Made by a program: the position numbers and the translations under genes. A DNA stretch of 33,772 nucleotides from a virus. Positions 2,679 to 19,387 of the stretch are shown one piece after another. The notes beneath the pieces are model-generated. The model had not been told where the DNA came from, made no database searches, and saw nothing but the letters and a program-made list of their open reading frames with translations. The first letter of the stretch is position 1. Each line of letters begins with the position of its first letter. The stretch is taken from positions 1 to 33,772 of IMG/VR virus record IMGVR_UViG_3300035698_027778; one strand, given 5' to 3'.

Positions 2679-3107
2679 ATGTCAGTTTCCAGCCATACCA
2701 TCACCGTACAAAACCGCCTAGAAGTCCGCCCGGGCAATGTAATTTTAGTTCCTGGGTGCGAACCGACGTCGGCATTTACTTCTCCGACCCTAGCGGCCAA
2801 CCAGGACTGCCAGGGGTCGATAGTGACATTGGCCGCCGTTCTGGCCAATATCCCCGGCGCCAAGGTGACCCAGCTCTACAATGGGGGTGGCGCTCACGTC
2901 AAAATGTATGTGATACTTCCAAGCGGCCCTGCACCATCTCCAAATCGCTGTAATACCGACACCTCAACTCCGTCGTGTATTCCCGATTGGTATGCAATTC
3001 TCAGAGAGCTTGCAGAACCAATCGCGTCGGACGATGATGAAGAGTCTCAGACCGTTGAACAAATCTGTGAGCGTTATTCGATACAAACACGCTGCGGAAT
3101 TCTGTAA
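2679..3107 (+). CDS. Hypothetical Cys-containing protein
   Basis: The protein has 142 residues and was not recognised. The first half (ITVQNRLEVRPGNVILVPGC) looks like beta strands. Six cysteines occur, including pairs near residues 27/43, a CNTDTSTPSC stretch and two near the C-terminus (ICERYSIQTRCGIL). The middle contains a Pro/Ser segment. The ATG lies 6 bp after a TAAATATA element with no Shine-Dalgarno sequence, so transcription and translation may start almost together, or the true start could be further in. The stop overlaps the next ATG (TAATG), so translation of the two is coupled. Confidence 0.6.
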   Translation: MSVSSHTITVQNRLEVRPGNVILVPGCEPTSAFTSPTLAANQDCQGSIVTLAAVLANIPGAKVTQLYNGGGAHVKMYVILPSGPAPSPNRCNTDTSTPSCIPDWYAILRELAEPIASDDDEESQTVEQICERYSIQTRCGIL

Positions 3108-6100
3108 TGTTCGAAGACAGGCTCAATAAAGCCCTCAATATAATCGACGAGTCTGTCTTATCTGAAGATGTGGCCGATGAAGTAATTATATTCTTGGATG
3201 TGCCATACACACTTGGCACTGCCGATGACAGATATTCAATCATTCGCGTGTATTCGAGCAGAGATTCGTCAGGTCCAATGGCCCACAGCACTGGCGGGAC
3301 TGCTGATGGGATGGAATGGAAATATTTGTCGGTCTCGGGCGATCATGACCAGACACCTGAGAGCAGCGGGATGCTGCCGGATTACTATAATCAACCTGAG
3401 CCTGGTGCGTTACAGACCCGAGTGAAATGGATTACTAAATTAAAAGGGCATGCTGCCCTTATGAATAATGAGAATGTCAATAGGCCAGTCGCCTACCAAC
3501 GGTTCAAGTCAAGCCCAATATTCAGGACAATCTCCTCGGCACTCGAGAAGTGGAGTACGCGAGGAGAGTTATTTGAATTTCCGGAGCTGAGCGGTGATGA
3601 TTCAGGTGCGTTCGCCAAATATGTCGCGGATTTAGGAGCATTAATTAAACGCCTGAATTCGCTTGCCGTATTCAATCGCGGCGCTGATCGAAAACAGGCA
3701 CGTTATCGCTCGCCGGCCAAGCTTTTTATCGACTGGTTGACTAATGTGCTGCAGAATCCTCCGTTCGATCTGAGTGGCTATTGGGTGGACAAAATCCCAA
3801 ACAAACCCATCGATATCGACCCAAACTTGGCCAGGCGAGATCCTGGTGCTAAACAACAGTTAGAAAAGCATTATAATTCGGGAAGCACAAAATATAAAAC
3901 GAAATATGGCGTCTATGACGATCTTATCAGTGGTGAATCCGCGTGGACCCCACAGCTCATTTATAATGCGATGCGTCGTGCCAGCACTGAGAATACTTCT
4001 AAAGAAGTTGCATCGAGAATCAACAGACTCGAGAGAGACCCAGAATATGGTCTAAAAAAATTACGGCGGATGGAGATAGCGCTCGCGCGCAAAATCTTAA
4101 GAACGAATCCTGGAATCCCAAAGAAGAAGGACGATCCGGATGTTTTGGCTCATAATGAGCTCTTAAATAAAATCGATGATCTTGAACAAGAGCTTGGCGA
4201 ATTAAAAAAACTTGGAAGCAGCACGCATTTCAATCCGACGATTAAAGATTATTGCGATTGGTTTGAGGCCGACCCGAATTCTACCCCGGAGGATGTTGTC
4301 TTTGATGGCGTAGTTAATCAGCGCGCTGTAGCTCAATGGGTGTTAGACAACAAATTGCCGTTCTTAGAATGGAAAGAAAAAGAAGTCGGTGTTGGGGCTG
4401 CTACTCGTGGAGATGATTTAATCGCATCAGATTTTATCATATCAACAAACCCAGATACCGACGAAAAACGCTCTCTTGGGCCCATTTCAAATACTGCAGA
4501 ATTATTTGAATTTTTAGAGATAGTCCAAAAAAGCCCAGCTGCATTGCGATGGGCGATAATTGACTTCGCCAAGGGCGTCGGCAAGGACAAACACGGCAGG
4601 CAGCATGAAGATGGCAATATCATCATCAAAACACGCGTTGAAACAACCGGTATTGTTAGTGACGATGATGTAGTTGATCTGTCGCAATTTGAACTCGATG
4701 CTAGAAAATCAGAAGCAACTCAGGCCGACCTCGGCCTTGTTGAGCCAGACATGGTTCATATAGGCATGCGCTCGAAGCTTGAAGTCACCGACCCAGATTA
4801 TATCGGTGCTCGTACGTATTCAGTACGGCCGTCCGATGAAACTATTATCAAACATTCCTATACTATGCGTGTGTGTGGTGACCCATTGGTTATATATAAT
4901 AAACGCCGAGAAGGAACTCTGACCAATACCAGTGTAATTTATGTCTATACAACATCCCCGAACATTAAACTGTCTGAAGAAGGGGATGACGTAGTAACCG
5001 CCTCGACGTTTGTTGGTGACAATGAGAAGACTTTATGCAAACTCTTCAGTTATTCACAACTACCGGAGAAATTAAGGGCGGTTGTAATTGATCATGCCGG
5101 TGTTGCTTCTAACATCAGGTCTGGAGGACAATTGCCTGGATGTTATCTTTGTTCTCTTTATGACGACGAAGGCAAGATTGTAGAGCTCCAACCAGGGACG
5201 ACGATTCCACCTGGACATGAAGCAATACACCATAAATTGGACCGCGATCAAGTAAATCTGCCGTCTGGCGCAGTAGTTCCGGCCAGTTACTTTCAGGAAG
5301 TTAAAAAAGCCCTCAAGCGGTTTTCTAAAGTTCGAGCCGCAGCCTGGTCGAGGAGGTCGGAAGCAGCTGGCGCCTCGAGAGGCAAACGTGTTCTAGACGA
5401 ATATATCAAAGAGTTTGCTGAGATCATCGACCAGGCTGTTAAAGATGGCGCCAGGTTTAGCGAAAGCCCGGAAGACGTCAAAGCAGCAATAACTAGGTGG
5501 CTCCAACAATATACTACTCCGCGCAGGTATGGTGTGAATGCTGAAGATCCGACCTCCATCGGTCGGATTCGGAGTGATGGAGAACTTACTGGGACGATGA
5601 AAGATACCATCATCAACGACATCATGAAGATGAATCGCGAAGGGAAATACGACAATATTTCTGGCGATGAAAATGATATTAGGACATTAGTTATTATTGC
5701 TGCACATATCGTCGACACGCATGGCAATCGAGTCCCAGACGCCGCTGAGATTGCAAATATTGCCAACAAATCTGGCGAGCACCTTGCTCCAGAGCACGCC
5801 ACAGCAATCAAGCGCATATTGGACGACGCTGTGGAACAATATATGGATGGTATGAATTCGCGTGAACGGAAAAATCTTATTGATCTAATTCGTGGCAAGA
5901 CTTATATCACTACCTTCGGTCGGTTTAGTCCACAAAATGACCAACGTTCCACCGATGACGAATTTGCAATCGAGCCAGAAGGGTGGGACGATGATGACGC
6001 GCTTGAATTTGTAAACGACCAAGCAATGGTTTCAGATATCGCGGATGAATTTATCAGAGACGCACGTTTTGTCATGCGAGAGAACCCAGACCTTTACGCT

Positions 6101-6391
6101 GCTTATTTGGCGTCTAAAGGGCACGGTTTCGCGGAAATCCAACAAATTCTTGCGGAGTCATCAATATTATTGACTGTTGACCAAGACGATCTCAGCAGCA
6201 TAAAGGTCCTTGGCGAGGCTGTTGGTGATGAACATTTATCTTTATTGAGTTTGGCCACGACGCATTATTCAACAGGTCTCGTCTGCATCAATGAGATGCT
6301 TCGCAGTTGGTGTATTCTTGACGAACGCGGGCAATATGCGAAGGCCAAAATCATCGATACTGATGGGACATTGGTATCAAATATTTTATAG
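3107..6391 (+). CDS. 1094-residue orphan protein, probably virion-associated
   Basis: No family was recognised for this long soluble protein. It begins with an acidic segment (MFEDRLNKALNIIDESV), then a beta-like stretch. Residues about 290-370 are charged and helical, with a likely coiled coil (KIDDLEQELGELKKLG). Residues about 500-740 are mixed alpha/beta. A long helical C-terminal half follows from about 740, containing a basic patch (KRFSKVRAAAWSRRSEAAG). No signal peptide, membrane helix, nucleotide-binding loop or protease motif is visible. It is co-translated with its upstream neighbour and abuts the neck/tail genes, with the next ATG directly after its stop. That context suggests a structural or injected virion protein, but no function should be assigned. 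Confidence 0.75.
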   Translation: MFEDRLNKALNIIDESVLSEDVADEVIIFLDVPYTLGTADDRYSIIRVYSSRDSSGPMAHSTGGTADGMEWKYLSVSGDHDQTPESSGMLPDYYNQPEPGALQTRVKWITKLKGHAALMNNENVNRPVAYQRFKSSPIFRTISSALEKWSTRGELFEFPELSGDDSGAFAKYVADLGALIKRLNSLAVFNRGADRKQARYRSPAKLFIDWLTNVLQNPPFDLSGYWVDKIPNKPIDIDPNLARRDPGAKQQLEKHYNSGSTKYKTKYGVYDDLISGESAWTPQLIYNAMRRASTENTSKEVASRINRLERDPEYGLKKLRRMEIALARKILRTNPGIPKKKDDPDVLAHNELLNKIDDLEQELGELKKLGSSTHFNPTIKDYCDWFEADPNSTPEDVVFDGVVNQRAVAQWVLDNKLPFLEWKEKEVGVGAATRGDDLIASDFIISTNPDTDEKRSLGPISNTAELFEFLEIVQKSPAALRWAIIDFAKGVGKDKHGRQHEDGNIIIKTRVETTGIVSDDDVVDLSQFELDARKSEATQADLGLVEPDMVHIGMRSKLEVTDPDYIGARTYSVRPSDETIIKHSYTMRVCGDPLVIYNKRREGTLTNTSVIYVYTTSPNIKLSEEGDDVVTASTFVGDNEKTLCKLFSYSQLPEKLRAVVIDHAGVASNIRSGGQLPGCYLCSLYDDEGKIVELQPGTTIPPGHEAIHHKLDRDQVNLPSGAVVPASYFQEVKKALKRFSKVRAAAWSRRSEAAGASRGKRVLDEYIKEFAEIIDQAVKDGARFSESPEDVKAAITRWLQQYTTPRRYGVNAEDPTSIGRIRSDGELTGTMKDTIINDIMKMNREGKYDNISGDENDIRTLVIIAAHIVDTHGNRVPDAAEIANIANKSGEHLAPEHATAIKRILDDAVEQYMDGMNSRERKNLIDLIRGKTYITTFGRFSPQNDQRSTDDEFAIEPEGWDDDDALEFVNDQAMVSDIADEFIRDARFVMRENPDLYAAYLASKGHGFAEIQQILAESSILLTVDQDDLSSIKVLGEAVGDEHLSLLSLATTHYSTGLVCINEMLRSWCILDERGQYAKAKIIDTDGTLVSNIL

Positions 6392-8575: not shown

Positions 8576-11431
8576 ATGGCACTTTACCTGTCTCCGGGCG
8601 TATTCCCGCGCGAGATAGATCTTTCTATCCTCGCAACGCTTTCAAGCGGGATTACGCCTGCGTTTATCGGCACCGCGCAAAAAGGCCCTGTAAACGACCC
8701 CACGTTCGTTTCTACGCCAGAACAGTTTATCGATGAGTTTGGTGAGCCATTCACCGACTCTAACCTCGGGTACGCAGTCCTTGCATACATGGAGGAAGGT
8801 AACCGGGCATGGATCATGAGGATCGGTGTTGAATGTGAAGAGGGACAGGTGTCCGCACTTGCCTCGATTTGTATTGATACATCTGGTGCTATGGAAGATG
8901 GTTGGGGCAGGATTGCGCTGTTCCAGGGGATCGATTTCGGAAAAGTCAGTCTTCGAGTGCCTACGACGACTGATATATTCGATTTCCACCCCGCCGGTGT
9001 TGATGACATTGATTACACCGACATTGACGTCTCTTCGTCGGATGGTGCCACCAACGCCACACTAGATTTTTCGTGCGGCACATGTACAGAGGAATATAAC
9101 GGCGCGATTGATGACAGTTTCACTGTCTTAGTTACTGCTTCACCCGATCCGTCATCTGGGTCGACTGTTGAGGGCGCAACATTCGAGATTATTCGTCAGA
9201 GCGACGGATCGGTTGTTGAGGATGGGACGTTTGGTGAAAGTGCTGTTCCCGGCACCTCGAACACGATTACCATCGGCACGACCGGTTTGTCATTTCGTGT
9301 TGTGGTTACGGGATCATCACCAATTGAGGAAGACGACACATTCACGTTCAGCGTTCAGCCCGAGAACCGTTACTTTGCGTTCCAGGTTGAGGGTAGAGCT
9401 GCGCCAGATGTTTATCAGATGCCGACGGCGACATATACGACAGCTGACACATTTGTGACGGCGTTCAATGACCTGCTTCCCGGCAACGAAGATTATATCG
9501 CGATTAATTCTGGCGGGGAACTTTATATTCGCACCGATACGGCTGGCGAACGTATCCAGTTGGTAGGAAATCCAATCACCGATATTAGCGCTGGTGAAGA
9601 TTCTGAGGGTTGGGCCCTCGAGGTTGGCAGTGCGAAATGGACGATCGACATTCCTCGCTCGTATATTATTGGTGACGACACTGGTCCGTATGCCATTACG
9701 TCCCAGAATCAAGACCTCACATTCCGGGTCGTTGGTCAAACCGCTTCGGTTGAGCTCGAGATGACGATAGCCGCTTCGTTGGCGGCTACAGCGACTTCGG
9801 TCGCCGCACAGATTCATGCCAGTAGTATCTCGAGTGGCACTCGTTATATGGATTCGTTTGCCATTTATACTTCTGATACCGAGAAGAAGGTGGTTATTGC
9901 GACGGATCAGACTCACCAGCTCTGGCAGATGAGGCTCCTGGCCGATTTCTCTCACATTGAGTCGTTGCGTTTTGCCGAAGTGCTCGAAATTCCTTATCCG
10001 TACACACGTGCATATCAAGGATTTTACGATTCACGAGTTGAAGAGCCAACACCAAGCACCGCAGATGCCTCAATTCCGGCTTCATGCGATGCCGCCGATG
10101 GCGGGGACCCCTCGGGTGCCTCATGTGCCGCTGATACGGCATATTACGCCAACATCGTCGGATATATTGTTGCGAAGTCGTCTGGAACTTGGATCGACAG
10201 TTTCAATCTGACGTTGGAACAATTCAATGACGATCCTGGTAGGTTTACGATTCTAATCAAAGACTCATCGGCGATCCTGCAAGAACGTATTGACGACCTG
10301 AGCTTCGATTCAAGCGCCACACGTTATATCGCGAATGTGATTAATGAAGGTTCGTCGATCGGTGGCACAAACGGCAATAGCTGGATCCAGTGGGTCGAAA
10401 GGGCTGTTGGCACAACCGAGGATCGCGATCCTGGGTCCCGCAATGCGACGTCCTTCAGCGGCGCGGCGAACGGTATTCCGACTAGTGCCGTGTACTCATC
10501 TGAGATCGATCGCGCAATTATCGGCAACCCGAGCGCGGCGTCTGGATTCTACGCCTTCAGCAACCCGGAGACGATCGATATCTCCCTGCTGGTGGTGCCG
10601 GGCAACTCGTCGGGTTCAGTTATCGCCCAAGGCTTGCAGCTTTGCGAAGGGCGGGGTGACTGCCATTACATCATCGATCCTCCGTACGGGCTCCGTCCGC
10701 AGCAGGTGGTCGACTGGCACAATGGCATGTTGAACTCTGACCTTACTGCGGCGATTAATAGCAGCTATGGTGCTCTTTACTGGAGCTGGCTGAAGATTTT
10801 CGATCAGTTCAGTGCTGAAGAGATTTACGTCCCGCCGTCCGGCCACATCGCTGCGGTTTACGCAAGGACCGAGCGTGAAAGCGAAATGTGGTACGCCCCG
10901 GCGGGTCTGAACAGAGGACGCCTGCTAACAGCCAAGGATGTCGAATATAGCCCGACGTCTGGAGAGCGCGATCTGCTCTATGGCTACAACAACGCGGTCA
11001 ACCCCATTGTGAACTTCCCGCAAGATGGTATCACAGTCTGGGGTCAGCGCACATTACAGCGCGCGGATTCGGCTCTCGATAGGGTCAACGTCCGGATGCT
11101 GCTCATTGCACTCAAGAAATCCCTGATTCCGCTACTACGCAACTACGTCTTCGAGCAGAACGATAGATTCTTGTGGTCGCAGGTGCGCGGAGCGATCAGG
11201 CCACTTCTAGCGGACATCGCCGCACGGCGCGGTCTAACAGCATATAAGGTGGTGTGTGATGAGACCAATAACACACCGCAACGAATCGATCGCAACGAAC
11301 TCTGGGTGAGCGTCTACATCAAGCCGACTCGCGTGGCAGAGTTCATCGTTCTCAATCTAGTTGTGATGCGCAGCGATCAGAGCTTTGCATCTGAGGAAGT
11401 CCTACAAGCCGGTGGCGTTGTTGGTGCTTAA
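8576..11431 (+). CDS. Tail sheath protein (gp18-like)
   Basis: This is the contractile tail sheath subunit, which polymerises around the tube and contracts to drive it into the cell. The N-terminus (LSPGVFPREIDLS ... ITPAFIGTAQKGPVNDPTFV) is the hallmark 'PGVyvrEid.s......t..a.vG.a.kGP' of sheath proteins. The C-terminus (GITVWGQRTLQRADSALDRV, then VRMLLIALKKSLIPLLRNYV) and the stretch ending in FIVLNLVVMRSDQSFASEEV match the conserved sheath C-terminal domain. At 951 residues it is about half as long again as T4 gp18 (659). The extra length lies in the middle (about 130-620), beta-rich and Thr/Ser/Asp-rich, probably surface-exposed insertion domains. Ribosome-binding site GGAG is upstream. 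The stretch is richer in G/C and in common codons than its neighbours, as expected for an abundant protein. Confidence 0.95.
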   Translation: MALYLSPGVFPREIDLSILATLSSGITPAFIGTAQKGPVNDPTFVSTPEQFIDEFGEPFTDSNLGYAVLAYMEEGNRAWIMRIGVECEEGQVSALASICIDTSGAMEDGWGRIALFQGIDFGKVSLRVPTTTDIFDFHPAGVDDIDYTDIDVSSSDGATNATLDFSCGTCTEEYNGAIDDSFTVLVTASPDPSSGSTVEGATFEIIRQSDGSVVEDGTFGESAVPGTSNTITIGTTGLSFRVVVTGSSPIEEDDTFTFSVQPENRYFAFQVEGRAAPDVYQMPTATYTTADTFVTAFNDLLPGNEDYIAINSGGELYIRTDTAGERIQLVGNPITDISAGEDSEGWALEVGSAKWTIDIPRSYIIGDDTGPYAITSQNQDLTFRVVGQTASVELEMTIAASLAATATSVAAQIHASSISSGTRYMDSFAIYTSDTEKKVVIATDQTHQLWQMRLLADFSHIESLRFAEVLEIPYPYTRAYQGFYDSRVEEPTPSTADASIPASCDAADGGDPSGASCAADTAYYANIVGYIVAKSSGTWIDSFNLTLEQFNDDPGRFTILIKDSSAILQERIDDLSFDSSATRYIANVINEGSSIGGTNGNSWIQWVERAVGTTEDRDPGSRNATSFSGAANGIPTSAVYSSEIDRAIIGNPSAASGFYAFSNPETIDISLLVVPGNSSGSVIAQGLQLCEGRGDCHYIIDPPYGLRPQQVVDWHNGMLNSDLTAAINSSYGALYWSWLKIFDQFSAEEIYVPPSGHIAAVYARTERESEMWYAPAGLNRGRLLTAKDVEYSPTSGERDLLYGYNNAVNPIVNFPQDGITVWGQRTLQRADSALDRVNVRMLLIALKKSLIPLLRNYVFEQNDRFLWSQVRGAIRPLLADIAARRGLTAYKVVCDETNNTPQRIDRNELWVSVYIKPTRVAEFIVLNLVVMRSDQSFASEEVLQAGGVVGA

Positions 11432-11444
11432 GGGAGTTTGAATA

Positions 11445-11978
11445 ATGCCGGGTTTTAATATTGGCGGAACAGCTGATCCCCAGCGTCAGAAAAGCAACAT
11501 CTCAGAGCCACGGCGCAAGCACCGTTGGTTGGTAAGTGAGCTGGGTGGTGTTCTAAAGAGGGAAGAGCTTGTATATTTGCAGAGCTGCTCACGCCCGAAT
11601 TTCAAGTACTCGCCTGCTGAAATGCACCATGACCAGGAAGTAGCATACTTCGCTGGGAAGCAGGAGTGGGATCCGATCGATTTCACTTTCTACGACATGG
11701 AGCAGGATGTAGATGTATCAGCCAAGCTCAAGGAATGGGTCACTGCGGTCACGACAAGTTGGGCTAATGTCGGAGATTTGACCACAGTCGCACTGCCTTC
11801 TGCGTACAAGAAGGACGGCGTTATCGAAATGACGCAGGGCGACGGTGAATCGTCTGAGACATGGCGTCTGCTTGGCATTTGGCCGATGGAAACCAACTGG
11901 AACGAGTTAGATTATACCAGCAACGACATTGCGTTAGTTGTTGTCAAAGCGAGGATTGATAGGGCGGTTCCTGAGTAA
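11445..11978 (+). CDS. Tail tube protein (gp19-like), copy 1
   Basis: The protein has 177 residues and lies 13 bp after the sheath gene with a GGGAG ribosome-binding site. The pattern (RKHRWLVSE ... RPNFKYSPAEMHHDQEVAYF ... WDPIDFTFYDMEQDVDVSAKL ... LLGIWPMETNWNELDYTSND) is that of T4 gp19-family tube subunits. These form hexameric rings inside the sheath. It shares the N-terminal MPGFNIxGT and overall layout with the next gene, so the two are tandem paralogues. This copy is the likely main tube subunit because it directly follows the sheath gene. Confidence 0.85.
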   Translation: MPGFNIGGTADPQRQKSNISEPRRKHRWLVSELGGVLKREELVYLQSCSRPNFKYSPAEMHHDQEVAYFAGKQEWDPIDFTFYDMEQDVDVSAKLKEWVTAVTTSWANVGDLTTVALPSAYKKDGVIEMTQGDGESSETWRLLGIWPMETNWNELDYTSNDIALVVVKARIDRAVPE

Positions 11979-11991
11979 TAATTGGTGATCA

Positions 11992-12540
11992 ATGCCTGGT
12001 TTTAATATTTCTGGCACAAAGGCCGATGGTTTCTCTATGGGAACCAACACGCTCGCAGATGTGGGTGATGCACATAGAAACCATAGATGGCGTGTGGAAG
12101 CACTTCCAATTCGTGCGAGCAACAAGGAGGTCATTAAGCTTCTGCCGTACGCCAAATCGGTCACGCTGCCGGATGTAGAATTCGAAGAAGTGCCAATAGA
12201 TGGCTCCACGATAACTTACAAATTTGCCGGCCGCCCCAAATTCGCGGATACCACTATCGAATTTTATGATGTATATGGCCTATATAATGAATTATATAGG
12301 GTTCAGGAAAATATTTGGAACCAATACTCTGGGTTAAATACGGGCTTTAATTATAAGGGCATTACTGAAGTCGTATTGACTTCCGGTGATGGGTCTGATA
12401 TTTCACGATACAGTCTTAAGAATTCATGGATTAAAAAGTTTTCCCACAGCCCGCTTTCTTATGACAATAGTGATTTCAAGCTTTTAATCTTAACTATTTC
12501 GTGTGATTGGATCGAGGCCGGTTTTCCAAAGGTGCCGTGA
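11992..12540 (+). CDS. Tail tube-like protein, copy 2
   Basis: The 182-residue protein is a paralogue of the preceding gene: MPGFNI start, HRNHRWRVE, a strand DVEFEEVPIDGSTITYKFAG, DTTIEFYDVYG and a C-terminal SYDNSDFKLLILTISCDW. It is diverged enough to have a separate role. In T4-like tails, gp48 and gp54 are tube-like initiator proteins, so this copy could be a baseplate-proximal or distal tube ring, or an alternative subunit. The stop is followed by a 72-bp gap without a gene. Confidence 0.75.
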   Translation: MPGFNISGTKADGFSMGTNTLADVGDAHRNHRWRVEALPIRASNKEVIKLLPYAKSVTLPDVEFEEVPIDGSTITYKFAGRPKFADTTIEFYDVYGLYNELYRVQENIWNQYSGLNTGFNYKGITEVVLTSGDGSDISRYSLKNSWIKKFSHSPLSYDNSDFKLLILTISCDWIEAGFPKVP

Positions 12541-17336: not shown

Positions 17337-17651
17337 ATGAGTGAAAACAATGGCGCCAAAGCGCTTGGTTATCTTCTTCTTCTATTTGTACTAGTTTACA
17401 CGTTTATTCGTTGGTTCTATGGTGGCCCAAGGACCTTTCTAAAGGTCTTTCTTTTTAATCTGTGGATCATAGCATCCTGGTATTTGGGGTTCGCTGACGA
17501 CCCGGTTTATGGATATGGCCCAGGTTGTGCTTCCTCGATCGTGTTTATAATTCTCTTTGTGCCGATTATGTTCTATACGACTTTCGTTTGGCAGGGTTAT
17601 TGTTGGTCTGAAGAAGAGGTATTTGAGAACGGTGAAGAAACCGTTCATTAA
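17337..17651 (+). CDS. Small membrane protein with three TM helices
   Basis: The protein has 104 residues from the ATG with GGAGC 6 bp upstream; the longer upstream frame crosses the promoter and is rejected. Three hydrophobic segments are clear: about 9-27 (ALGYLLLLFVLVYTFIRWF), 33-52 (TFLKVFLFNLWIIASWYLGF) and 65-85 (ASSIVFIILFVPIMFYTTF). The C-terminal tail is acidic (SEEEVFENGEE). It is the first gene of the sigma70-driven cassette and overlaps the primase start. It is not recognised as a holin or superinfection-exclusion protein, though either is compatible with its size and early promoter. Confidence 0.7.
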   Translation: MSENNGAKALGYLLLLFVLVYTFIRWFYGGPRTFLKVFLFNLWIIASWYLGFADDPVYGYGPGCASSIVFIILFVPIMFYTTFVWQGYCWSEEEVFENGEETVH

Positions 17652-18711
17652 ACCGTCTCAATCGCAGATTGAGACATGGATTAAAACCAATATCCGGGAC
17701 TATAATACGCGCAATAGTTCCGCGCGTGGTATGATATATCTAATCGATAACCCGGCGATCCCGGGCGATTCTGGGCATCATCTCGGGATAAGTCCGTCTG
17801 AAGGCTGGTGTCGCGACTTCCGCCCGCACTACAGCGACTGGAATGTTTCATTCCTCAAATTCGTGAGCAAGGTCCGTAATTGCTCGTTCCACGAGGCGAT
17901 CAAGGAAGTATGCGGCAATAAGGCGACTCTCAAAGCACTCATCGCTGAAGTCAAGCGTGCTGAAGAAGAAATAGATGAAGAGCCCGAGGAGGTTTTTGCA
18001 CTCCCAGATAACGTCAAGACCATTGGTGTTGGAGAAGGCGCGGCATGGAAGATTGCCACGAATTATCTCAAACGCCGCCAAATTTCAGTGGAAGAAGCCA
18101 CTAGATTAGACATTCGCTATAACGTCACTAGCTTGTGCTTCCCATATTATGAATATGGGATGGTCGTTTATTATCAAACTAGAGACATGATGGCCAAACG
18201 CTTTTATTTCCCGACGGTCGATGCGGCCGGTGAGAAATCCAATGCGTTCCTGTACGGTTTCGATGACGTCGAGCCAATGACGCCGGCAATTATCACGGAA
18301 GCAATATTCGATTCGATCATGATTGGCGAAGGTGGCCTGGCGACAGGCGGGGCGACTTTCAAGCGCAAGCAAATTAGTAAGCTCAGAGCATTAAACCCAT
18401 CGAAGGTCGTGCTCGCCCCAGACAACGATAATGCCGGCTTGATCTCACTGCGTTCAAATTATGACCTTCTCGAGCCACATTTCGGAGGGCGATTATATCA
18501 TTGCCTGCCACCACAGGAACACAAGGATTGGAACGCATTCGCCCAAGCCATCAGCCGCATAAATAAGCCAACAGCAGTTAGGGATTGGATCGATGATAGG
18601 ATTGAGCCACTCGATTCGTTTAGTGTTTTGAAATTGACGGATCAGGCTGTTGATGAAGTTGAACAAGGCATGAAGAACCGCCGCAAGCTCGGCAGATATC
18701 TTAGGGGCTAA
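17632..18711 (+). CDS. DNA primase, DnaG/Toprim type
   Basis: This primase would synthesise RNA primers for phage DNA replication. The protein has 359 residues if started at GTG 17632; a TTG nine bases upstream is possible. Residues about 30-100 resemble a primase N-terminal domain (GMIYLIDNPAIPG ... GWCRDF) but lack the usual CHC2 zinc-finger cysteine set. Residues about 125-200 form the linker before the core. The Toprim core follows: TEAIFDSIM with Glu223, a GGLATGGATFKRKQISKLRA segment, and APDNDNAGL with Asp264/Asp266. These acidic residues bind catalytic Mg2+. No helicase Walker motif is present. It is the only replication gene in this stretch, lies in the early-type cassette and is 2 bp from the next gene. 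Confidence 0.75.
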   Translation: MKKPFIKPSQSQIETWIKTNIRDYNTRNSSARGMIYLIDNPAIPGDSGHHLGISPSEGWCRDFRPHYSDWNVSFLKFVSKVRNCSFHEAIKEVCGNKATLKALIAEVKRAEEEIDEEPEEVFALPDNVKTIGVGEGAAWKIATNYLKRRQISVEEATRLDIRYNVTSLCFPYYEYGMVVYYQTRDMMAKRFYFPTVDAAGEKSNAFLYGFDDVEPMTPAIITEAIFDSIMIGEGGLATGGATFKRKQISKLRALNPSKVVLAPDNDNAGLISLRSNYDLLEPHFGGRLYHCLPPQEHKDWNAFAQAISRINKPTAVRDWIDDRIEPLDSFSVLKLTDQAVDEVEQGMKNRRKLGRYLRG

Positions 18712-18713
18712 AT

Positions 18714-19253
18714 ATGACATGTATTATTGGTATTGTCGGTAAAGATCGTGTCTGGATGGCGGCGGATTCTATTGGCTCCAATGGCTGGAACAAGGCACAT
18801 CGCACAGATGCGAAATTGTTTCGTAATGGTCCGTTCCTTATTGGATTCACGTCGTCATATCGAATGGGTCAGCTCATTCGATATGACTTCAAACCGCCGC
18901 AACCCAGCGGCGACCCACATAGGTTTATGGTGTCTAAATTCATCCCGGGGGTTAGAAAATGTCTCAAAGATGGGGGATTCCTGACAACCAAGGATGGCGT
19001 CGACCAAGGTGGTGAATTCCTGGTTGCTGTGGGATCTAAGATATTCCATATTCAATCTGATTTCCAAGTTGGGGAATCAAGCGACGGATTTGACGCCTGC
19101 GGGTCTGGAAGCGATTTTGCCCTTGGGTCTTTGTGGACCTCCACAGGGACCGAACGCTTTAGACTTAAATTGGCTCTTGAGGCCGCTGAGAGATATATTA
19201 TTACTGTCGGCGGACCTTTCGTCTATCGAAGCCAGAAAATCAAAAGTACTTAA
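18714..19253 (+). CDS. Proteasome/HslV-like Ntn-hydrolase peptidase
   Basis: The protein has 179 residues. After removal of Met1 the N-terminus is Thr (TCIIGIVGKDRVWMAADSIG), and numbering from that Thr puts Asp at 17 and Lys at 33 (AHRTDAKLFR). These are exactly the Thr1/Asp17/Lys33 catalytic set of proteasome beta subunits and HslV. The GFTSS stretch near 46 matches the 'GfaG' turn, and CGSGSDFALGSL near 125 matches the conserved GSG-(S/G)-x-(Y/F)-A element that carries the oxyanion/Ser129 region. Family members form ring-shaped peptidases fed by AAA+ ATPases. No partner ATPase (HslU-like) is in the window, so host unfoldase use or ATP-independent action is inferred. The gene sits 2 bp after the primase. 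Confidence 0.85.
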   Translation: MTCIIGIVGKDRVWMAADSIGSNGWNKAHRTDAKLFRNGPFLIGFTSSYRMGQLIRYDFKPPQPSGDPHRFMVSKFIPGVRKCLKDGGFLTTKDGVDQGGEFLVAVGSKIFHIQSDFQVGESSDGFDACGSGSDFALGSLWTSTGTERFRLKLALEAAERYIITVGGPFVYRSQKIKST

Positions 19254-19313: not shown

Positions 19314-19387
19314 TGGCCCGTGGCCGAAGGGTGAGGCTCCGTCCTTATAAGACGGAAAACTGGGTTCGAGTCCCAGCGGGCCTACCA
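19314..19387 (+). tRNA. tRNA-Ile, anticodon UAU, CCA encoded
   Basis: A cloverleaf can be folded by eye. The acceptor is TGGCCCG/CGGGCCT with six good pairs and a T1-T72 mismatch. U8 is present and a three-pair D stem is GCC/GGC. The anticodon stem CCGTC/GACGG is perfect, with loop CTTATAA (anticodon TAT, A37 as expected for A-starting codons). The variable loop is AAAA, and the T arm is CTGGG-TTCGAGT-CCCAG. The discriminator is A and CCA is genome-encoded. The anticodon reads AUA isoleucine codons, which occur in several genes of the window. It lies 60 bp after the peptidase gene and before an intrinsic terminator. Confidence 0.85.

Follow-up and report, generated by a model that had tools for sequence, protein, structure and literature searches.

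The ORF at 18714–19253 (+ strand) of the window, by which we mean the whole 33,772-base stretch of viral DNA that was analysed, is a real gene. Profile alignments and the predicted structure place its product in the proteasome-like Ntn-hydrolase family (group I), with an intact catalytic register. The protein is probably an ATPase-independent compartmental threonine peptidase of the AAH type made together with a phage operon, for which we infer the ring, the activity and the substrate. This best explanation is supported by a match to phrog_1040, a family profile with the catalytic residues in register, AlphaFold2 and PDB fold matches, invariant residues, the rarity of Clp/HslU-type ATPase genes in phages that carry the family, the published lack of AAA+ partners, and an operon-like position with a Shine-Dalgarno sequence. 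The features of the locus are as follows:

17650–18711, +, DnaG-like primase with Toprim domain (Toprim_2 E 1.2e-6; phrog_47 DNA primase E 1e-21), immediately upstream and in the same operon direction
18702–18707, +, Shine-Dalgarno-like sequence with AGGGG, read from the sequence; it overlaps the primase ORF at its 3′ end
18714–19253, +, HslV/BPH-like N-terminal-threonine peptidase gene, AAH-type, 179 aa, propeptide absent (phrog_1040, AlphaFold2, BPH fold match, phage homologs)
18717–18719, +, Thr2 codon, mature Thr1, the predicted nucleophile once Met1 is gone (74 of 74 rows; aligned with the Thr of BPH 5ovu)
18765–18767, +, Asp18 codon, mature Asp17 (invariant in the 74-row alignment and a divergent 17-phage alignment)
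18813–18815, +, Lys34 codon, mature Lys33 (invariant in the same two alignments)
18852–18854, +, Ser47 codon, at the oxyanion-hole glycine position (BPH Gly50, proteasome Gly47), from column counts and alignment register
19101–19109, +, Gly130-Ser131-Gly132, counterpart of the proteasome Ser129 element (aligned with the GSG of BPH)
19314–19387, +, tRNA-Ile (anticodon TAT; ARAGORN), just downstream of the peptidase gene

The gene and its genomic setting

The peptidase ORF runs from an ATG at 18714 to a TAA at 19253 and encodes a protein that begins with Met-Thr and lacks a propeptide. Two bases separate the end of the primase ORF from the ATG, and the AGGGG ribosome-binding-like sequence is found six bases 5′ of it. 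The GC content of the gene (0.474; GC3 0.46) resembles that of the remainder of the window. A chance ORF was rejected on the basis of phrog_1040 (E 2.3e-23), tblastn matches in phages (E ~1e-40) and in-register profile matches.

The window is a virus record without end repeats and is probably a genome fragment. Its contractile-tail genes encode a sheath, two tail-tube paralogs, a baseplate hub, a gp25-like wedge and a base_V hub, and it also carries the DnaG/Toprim primase, the tRNA-Ile and an adenosylcobalamin-type ribonucleotide reductase gene. The peptidase gene is followed by the tRNA-Ile gene and then by a 1064-aa gene that, by position, length and hydrophobic character, is a probable tape measure gene; no family match above threshold was found for it in Pfam or PHROG. 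The initial annotation had thus correctly placed the peptidase gene inside a tail block, adjoining a primase. Three IMG/VR scans, one for the primase, one for the probable tape measure protein and one for an upstream ORF of 436 aa, gave no close relatives.

Several other observations were made in the window. The tail sheath (8576–11431, 951 aa) is matched by named phage sheaths over less than half of its length, mostly in the C-terminal part; a full-length relative was found in two short IMG/VR sister contigs (50–56% identity), neither of which reaches the peptidase gene. The two tail-tube-like genes (11445–11978 and 11992–12540) both match phrog_4542 and their products show 24% identity over their length (E 2e-13), and on this comparison they are taken to be tandemly duplicated, diverged paralogs. 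A 1094-aa ORF beside the tail genes (3107–6391) gave no Pfam or clear PHROG match. A tandem 60-base unit in 5.7 copies at the window edge (2–342) encodes repeats of the PADAPSTETAP.KSPTTVE type. The anticodon TAT of the tRNA-Ile reads ATA, which makes up about 17% of the Ile codons (84/485) in the other ORFs of the window. The ribonucleotide reductase of this contractile-tailed phage (31061–33421) is of the adenosylcobalamin-dependent class II type, NrdJ_Z, with its nearest phage matches in crAss-like and huge phages (~37% identity).

Family, fold and catalytic centre

The protein matched phrog_1040, "peptidase HslV family", over residues 1–174, and tblastn matches in phages extended from residue 1 to about residue 175 with 43–45% identity. 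The Pfam Proteasome profile PF00227 gave E 0.27 (11.3 bits compared to a cut-off of 22.4), and only 5 of 74 relatives reached E 0.01. This cut-off is a detection threshold and not a structural feature, and many of these proteasome-homolog subfamilies show low pairwise similarity (Fuchs et al., 2021; PMC8665760). Homology therefore rests on family-level profiles and structure. A phmmer search of the PDB with the protein alone gave BPH as the sole, weak match (E 0.45); a profile built from 74 relatives matched solved BPH (E 1.5e-5) and also HslV and proteasome beta chains, and in these alignments Thr, Asp and Lys fall on the solved catalytic residues.

AlphaFold2 with the 74-row alignment gave a model with pLDDT 96.4 and pTM 0.91; a model from the single sequence (pLDDT 30) was discarded. 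The retained model shows helices at residues 49–57, 68–86, 133–142 and 147–161, followed by one strand. A Foldseek search of the PDB with this model gave BPH as the best match (TM 0.82, E 5e-11), followed by Cupriavidus BPH, HslV (TM 0.72) and proteasome beta, and the alpha-beta-beta-alpha proteasome beta fold is present in the model. The proteasome/HslV-like family and fold proposed at the outset are thus supported by profile, predicted structure and PDB fold search. Two outcomes had been named beforehand as counting against the proposal, the lack of an Ntn-hydrolase profile match and a wrong fold; both were looked for, neither was found, and the claim survived.

The solved proteins closest in fold, BPH of Thiobacillus denitrificans (5ovs/5ovt) and Cupriavidus metallidurans (5ovu), also lack a propeptide and have their catalytic residues in register with those of the window protein. 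They differ from it in showing only about 22% identity and in having Gly50 where the window protein has Ser47. HslV is similar in fold (TM about 0.7), in its Thr nucleophile and in catalytic register, but shows 16–18% identity, and its partner HslU was not found among the scanned window proteins.

Among the 74 aligned relatives, Thr2, Asp18, Lys34, Gly44, Gly130 and Gly132 were found to be invariant, and position 131 is Cys or Ser. The relatives were collected with search peptides around residues 48–55 and 102–112; because Thr2, Asp18, Lys34, Gly130 and Gly132 lie outside these peptides, their invariance is not a search artefact, and the invariance of Ser48, Arg50, Met51 and Gln53, which lie inside them, was left out of the evidence. 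In the divergent set of 17 phages, Asp18, Lys34, Gly130 and Gly132 were still invariant and Thr2 was replaced once, by Ser. All collected relatives begin with Met-Thr, or an equivalent start codon, without a propeptide. Alignment with solved structures and invariance in the 74 relatives also bear out the proposal that Thr1, Asp17 and Lys33, numbered after removal of Met, fall at the positions known from proteasome beta subunits and HslV.

The string GSGSDFALG (residues 130–138) had been taken for the oxyanion region, which was shown to be wrong. From the BPH numbering (Thr1, Asp17, Lys37, Gly50 and Ser139; PMC5777263) and the family-profile alignment it follows that the GSG at 130–132 is the Ser129/Ser139 element and that the oxyanion-glycine position holds Ser47. 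Relatives have Ser, Thr or Gly at this position, rarely Asp or Ala, and the backbone NH of Ser47 may still be able to serve as oxyanion hole. The correction is without consequence for the family call.

Relatives, subfamily and gene context

Relatives were found in at least 207 GenBank phage records (tblastn), many of them already annotated as "peptidase HslV family" or "proteasome", and in IMG/VR and bacterial genomes alignment-seeded scans counted at least 587 and 182 stretches, respectively. The bacterial matches listed are mostly from alpha-proteobacteria and Actinobacteria; among 80 of these, Azospirillum, Rhizobiales, Streptomyces, Dactylosporangium and Frankia predominate. A single-sequence scan of IMG/VR with the window protein found no close relative. 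Family members are also encoded by 26 plasmids, mostly rhizobial; the AAH-type genes on large, mostly conjugative rhizobial plasmids are annotated as hypothetical proteins.

No AAA_2 (Clp/HslU-type) match was found in 18 of 21 phage records carrying the family, while the same search gave a match in 14 of 14 control genomes. No AAA+ unfoldase was found among the scanned window proteins either, the window being a 33.8-kb fragment of a genome that may encode an ATPase elsewhere. The locus had been called unusual for having a self-compartmentalising peptidase inside a tail block, beside a primase and with no ATPase partner. This is not supported, as many phages carry the family, the literature has already given it names, and absence of the partner is the rule; phage proteasome homologs are common and structurally clear, and the surprise was not upheld for a family that is already known. 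Fuchs, Alva and Lupas (2021; PMC8665760) described 22 new proteasome homologs including AAH and PPH, both present in phages, and reported AAH and PPH to be without a co-occurring AAA+ partner and their gene context to be uninformative.

The window protein fits AAH on three features, namely its length, its helix H2 and the hosts in which its relatives occur, and is placed there on these. Shared with AAH are a compact single-domain proteasome-like fold (H1–H4, with the C-terminal S12/H5 extensions absent in the model), the Met-Thr start, Thr1/Asp17/Lys33, and relatives in phages, alpha-proteobacteria and Actinobacteria. It differs in being about 45–50% identical to the nearest relatives compared and in branching deeply, at a point of some uncertainty. 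A maximum-likelihood tree of 117 proteins placed it just outside a large radiation of temperate-phage and bacterial proteins, and its grouping with Geobacillus phage E3 and a 340-kb viral contig was weak. PPH is likewise a phage-borne group I proteasome homolog, but is about 140 aa long and lacks helix H2; membership was rejected for the window protein, which has 179 aa and a 19-residue helix at 68–86.

The catalytic register was also found in homologs from the phages Psychrobacter D'Alembert, Moorella MTATph1, Geobacillus E3, Ochrobactrum OC and Escherichia 121Q. In these and in the Salmonella jumbo phage pSal-SNUABM-04, which has two HslV genes but lacks HslU (PMC7823757), the gene neighbourhoods differ from that of the window, and none of the GenBank phage regions examined shares its tail-block setting. 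The annotated start of the MTATph1 homolog (OR602862.1, 8001–8558) lies 14 codons downstream of the conserved Met-Thr, and the annotation therefore omits the catalytic Thr. The family has three members in Aeromonas phage 2L372X (NC_048770.1), a tandem pair among them, and two each in 121Q and SCTP-2. Phage ct2KA10 (OX376640.1, 5698–8036) contains an unannotated, GTG-started homolog directly 3′ of a 594-aa probable portal gene, assigned as such from gene order only.

In large lytic phages the family gene is often found among nucleotide-metabolism, PhoH, dCMP deaminase, RNR and thymidylate synthase genes. In temperate-type IMG/VR contigs, terminase or portal genes adjoin it in 16 of 40 loci, while random same-strand ORFs would give about 8 (P ~0.001, a value uncorrected for shared ancestry of the loci). 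A few other loci place it beside helicase-primase, DNA polymerase or ribonucleotide reductase genes. A head maturation protease (S78 or other) was found within 5 kb in at least 18 of 80 loci, by which replacement of the head maturation protease by the family gene was rejected. This variation from phage to phage fits a mobile accessory gene that is expressed from whichever operon it has entered.

Proposed function and alternatives

Removal of Met1 by methionine aminopeptidase before Thr is an established rule. The Met-Thr start and the relatives without propeptide suggest that the host enzyme would free Thr1 in this way, and alignment and predicted fold point to Thr1, Asp17 and Lys33 as the catalytic centre. 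By likeness to BPH and HslV, the subunits would probably assemble as a double ring with the active sites inside, and be produced along with the products of the phage replication and tail genes. A dedicated AAA+ partner is probably not needed by such a ring, which would cut unstructured or specific small substrates during infection. BPH forms a double heptameric ring that binds epoxomicin through Thr1, but in purified form it showed no activity towards casein or standard peptides (PMC5777263). It may plausibly accept few substrates or have lacked an activator, and peptidase activity of the window protein is not assured.

The same inertness would suit an enzyme that uses the fold for something other than proteolysis, such as a specific protein ligase of the connectase kind. 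Connectase shows that a proteasome-like protein can act as a monomeric ligase (PMC8665760), and it shares the catalytic centre that all members of the family conserve. However, connectase lacks both H1 and H2, which are present in the model (helices 49–57 and 68–86), the connectase insertion is absent from the window protein, and the closest folds are those of ring-forming BPH and HslV; a ligase is therefore considered very improbable. Somewhat less remote, though unlikely, is the recruitment of host HslU or ClpX by the protein as peptidase subunit, by which host proteolysis would be redirected in the course of infection. HslU is the working partner of HslV proper, and most phages carrying the family are without a Clp/HslU-type ATPase of their own; against this, BPH has lost the HslU-contact residues and pulled down no ATPase partner (PMC5777263), and Fuchs et al. 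found no co-occurring AAA+ (PMC8665760). Counter-defence, host takeover and virion maturation may each be a role of the protein; direct support was found for none of them, nor was specific evidence found for the first or for the takeover of an unfoldase, both raised in the initial annotation.

A role in morphogenesis, with the peptidase processing a structural or scaffold protein of the phage at a late stage of infection, would agree with the excess of terminase and portal neighbours in temperate loci and with the position of the window gene, which has tail genes on one side and the probable tape measure gene on the other. The dedicated head maturation proteases close to many family genes, the location near nucleotide-metabolism and PhoH genes in large lytic phages and the free shifting of the gene among phages speak against it, and we hold it to be improbable. 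The ATPase-free AAH-type peptidase, our preferred reading, could itself belong to a late assembly programme in which the threonine-peptidase ring processes or clears phage structural proteins. This is a doubtful extension; if true, it would explain both the repeated arrival of the gene beside terminase and portal genes in temperate phages and its tail-block position in the window.

The window gene is a clean example of the family, with its catalytic residues intact, from a poorly sampled lineage of contractile-tailed phages, and it agrees with the general picture in which phages mostly lack a Clp/HslU-type partner. The recurrent placement beside packaging genes is a testable lead. The functional question is common to the whole family, and the substrate of any one member would tell what viruses do with a proteasome-like enzyme.
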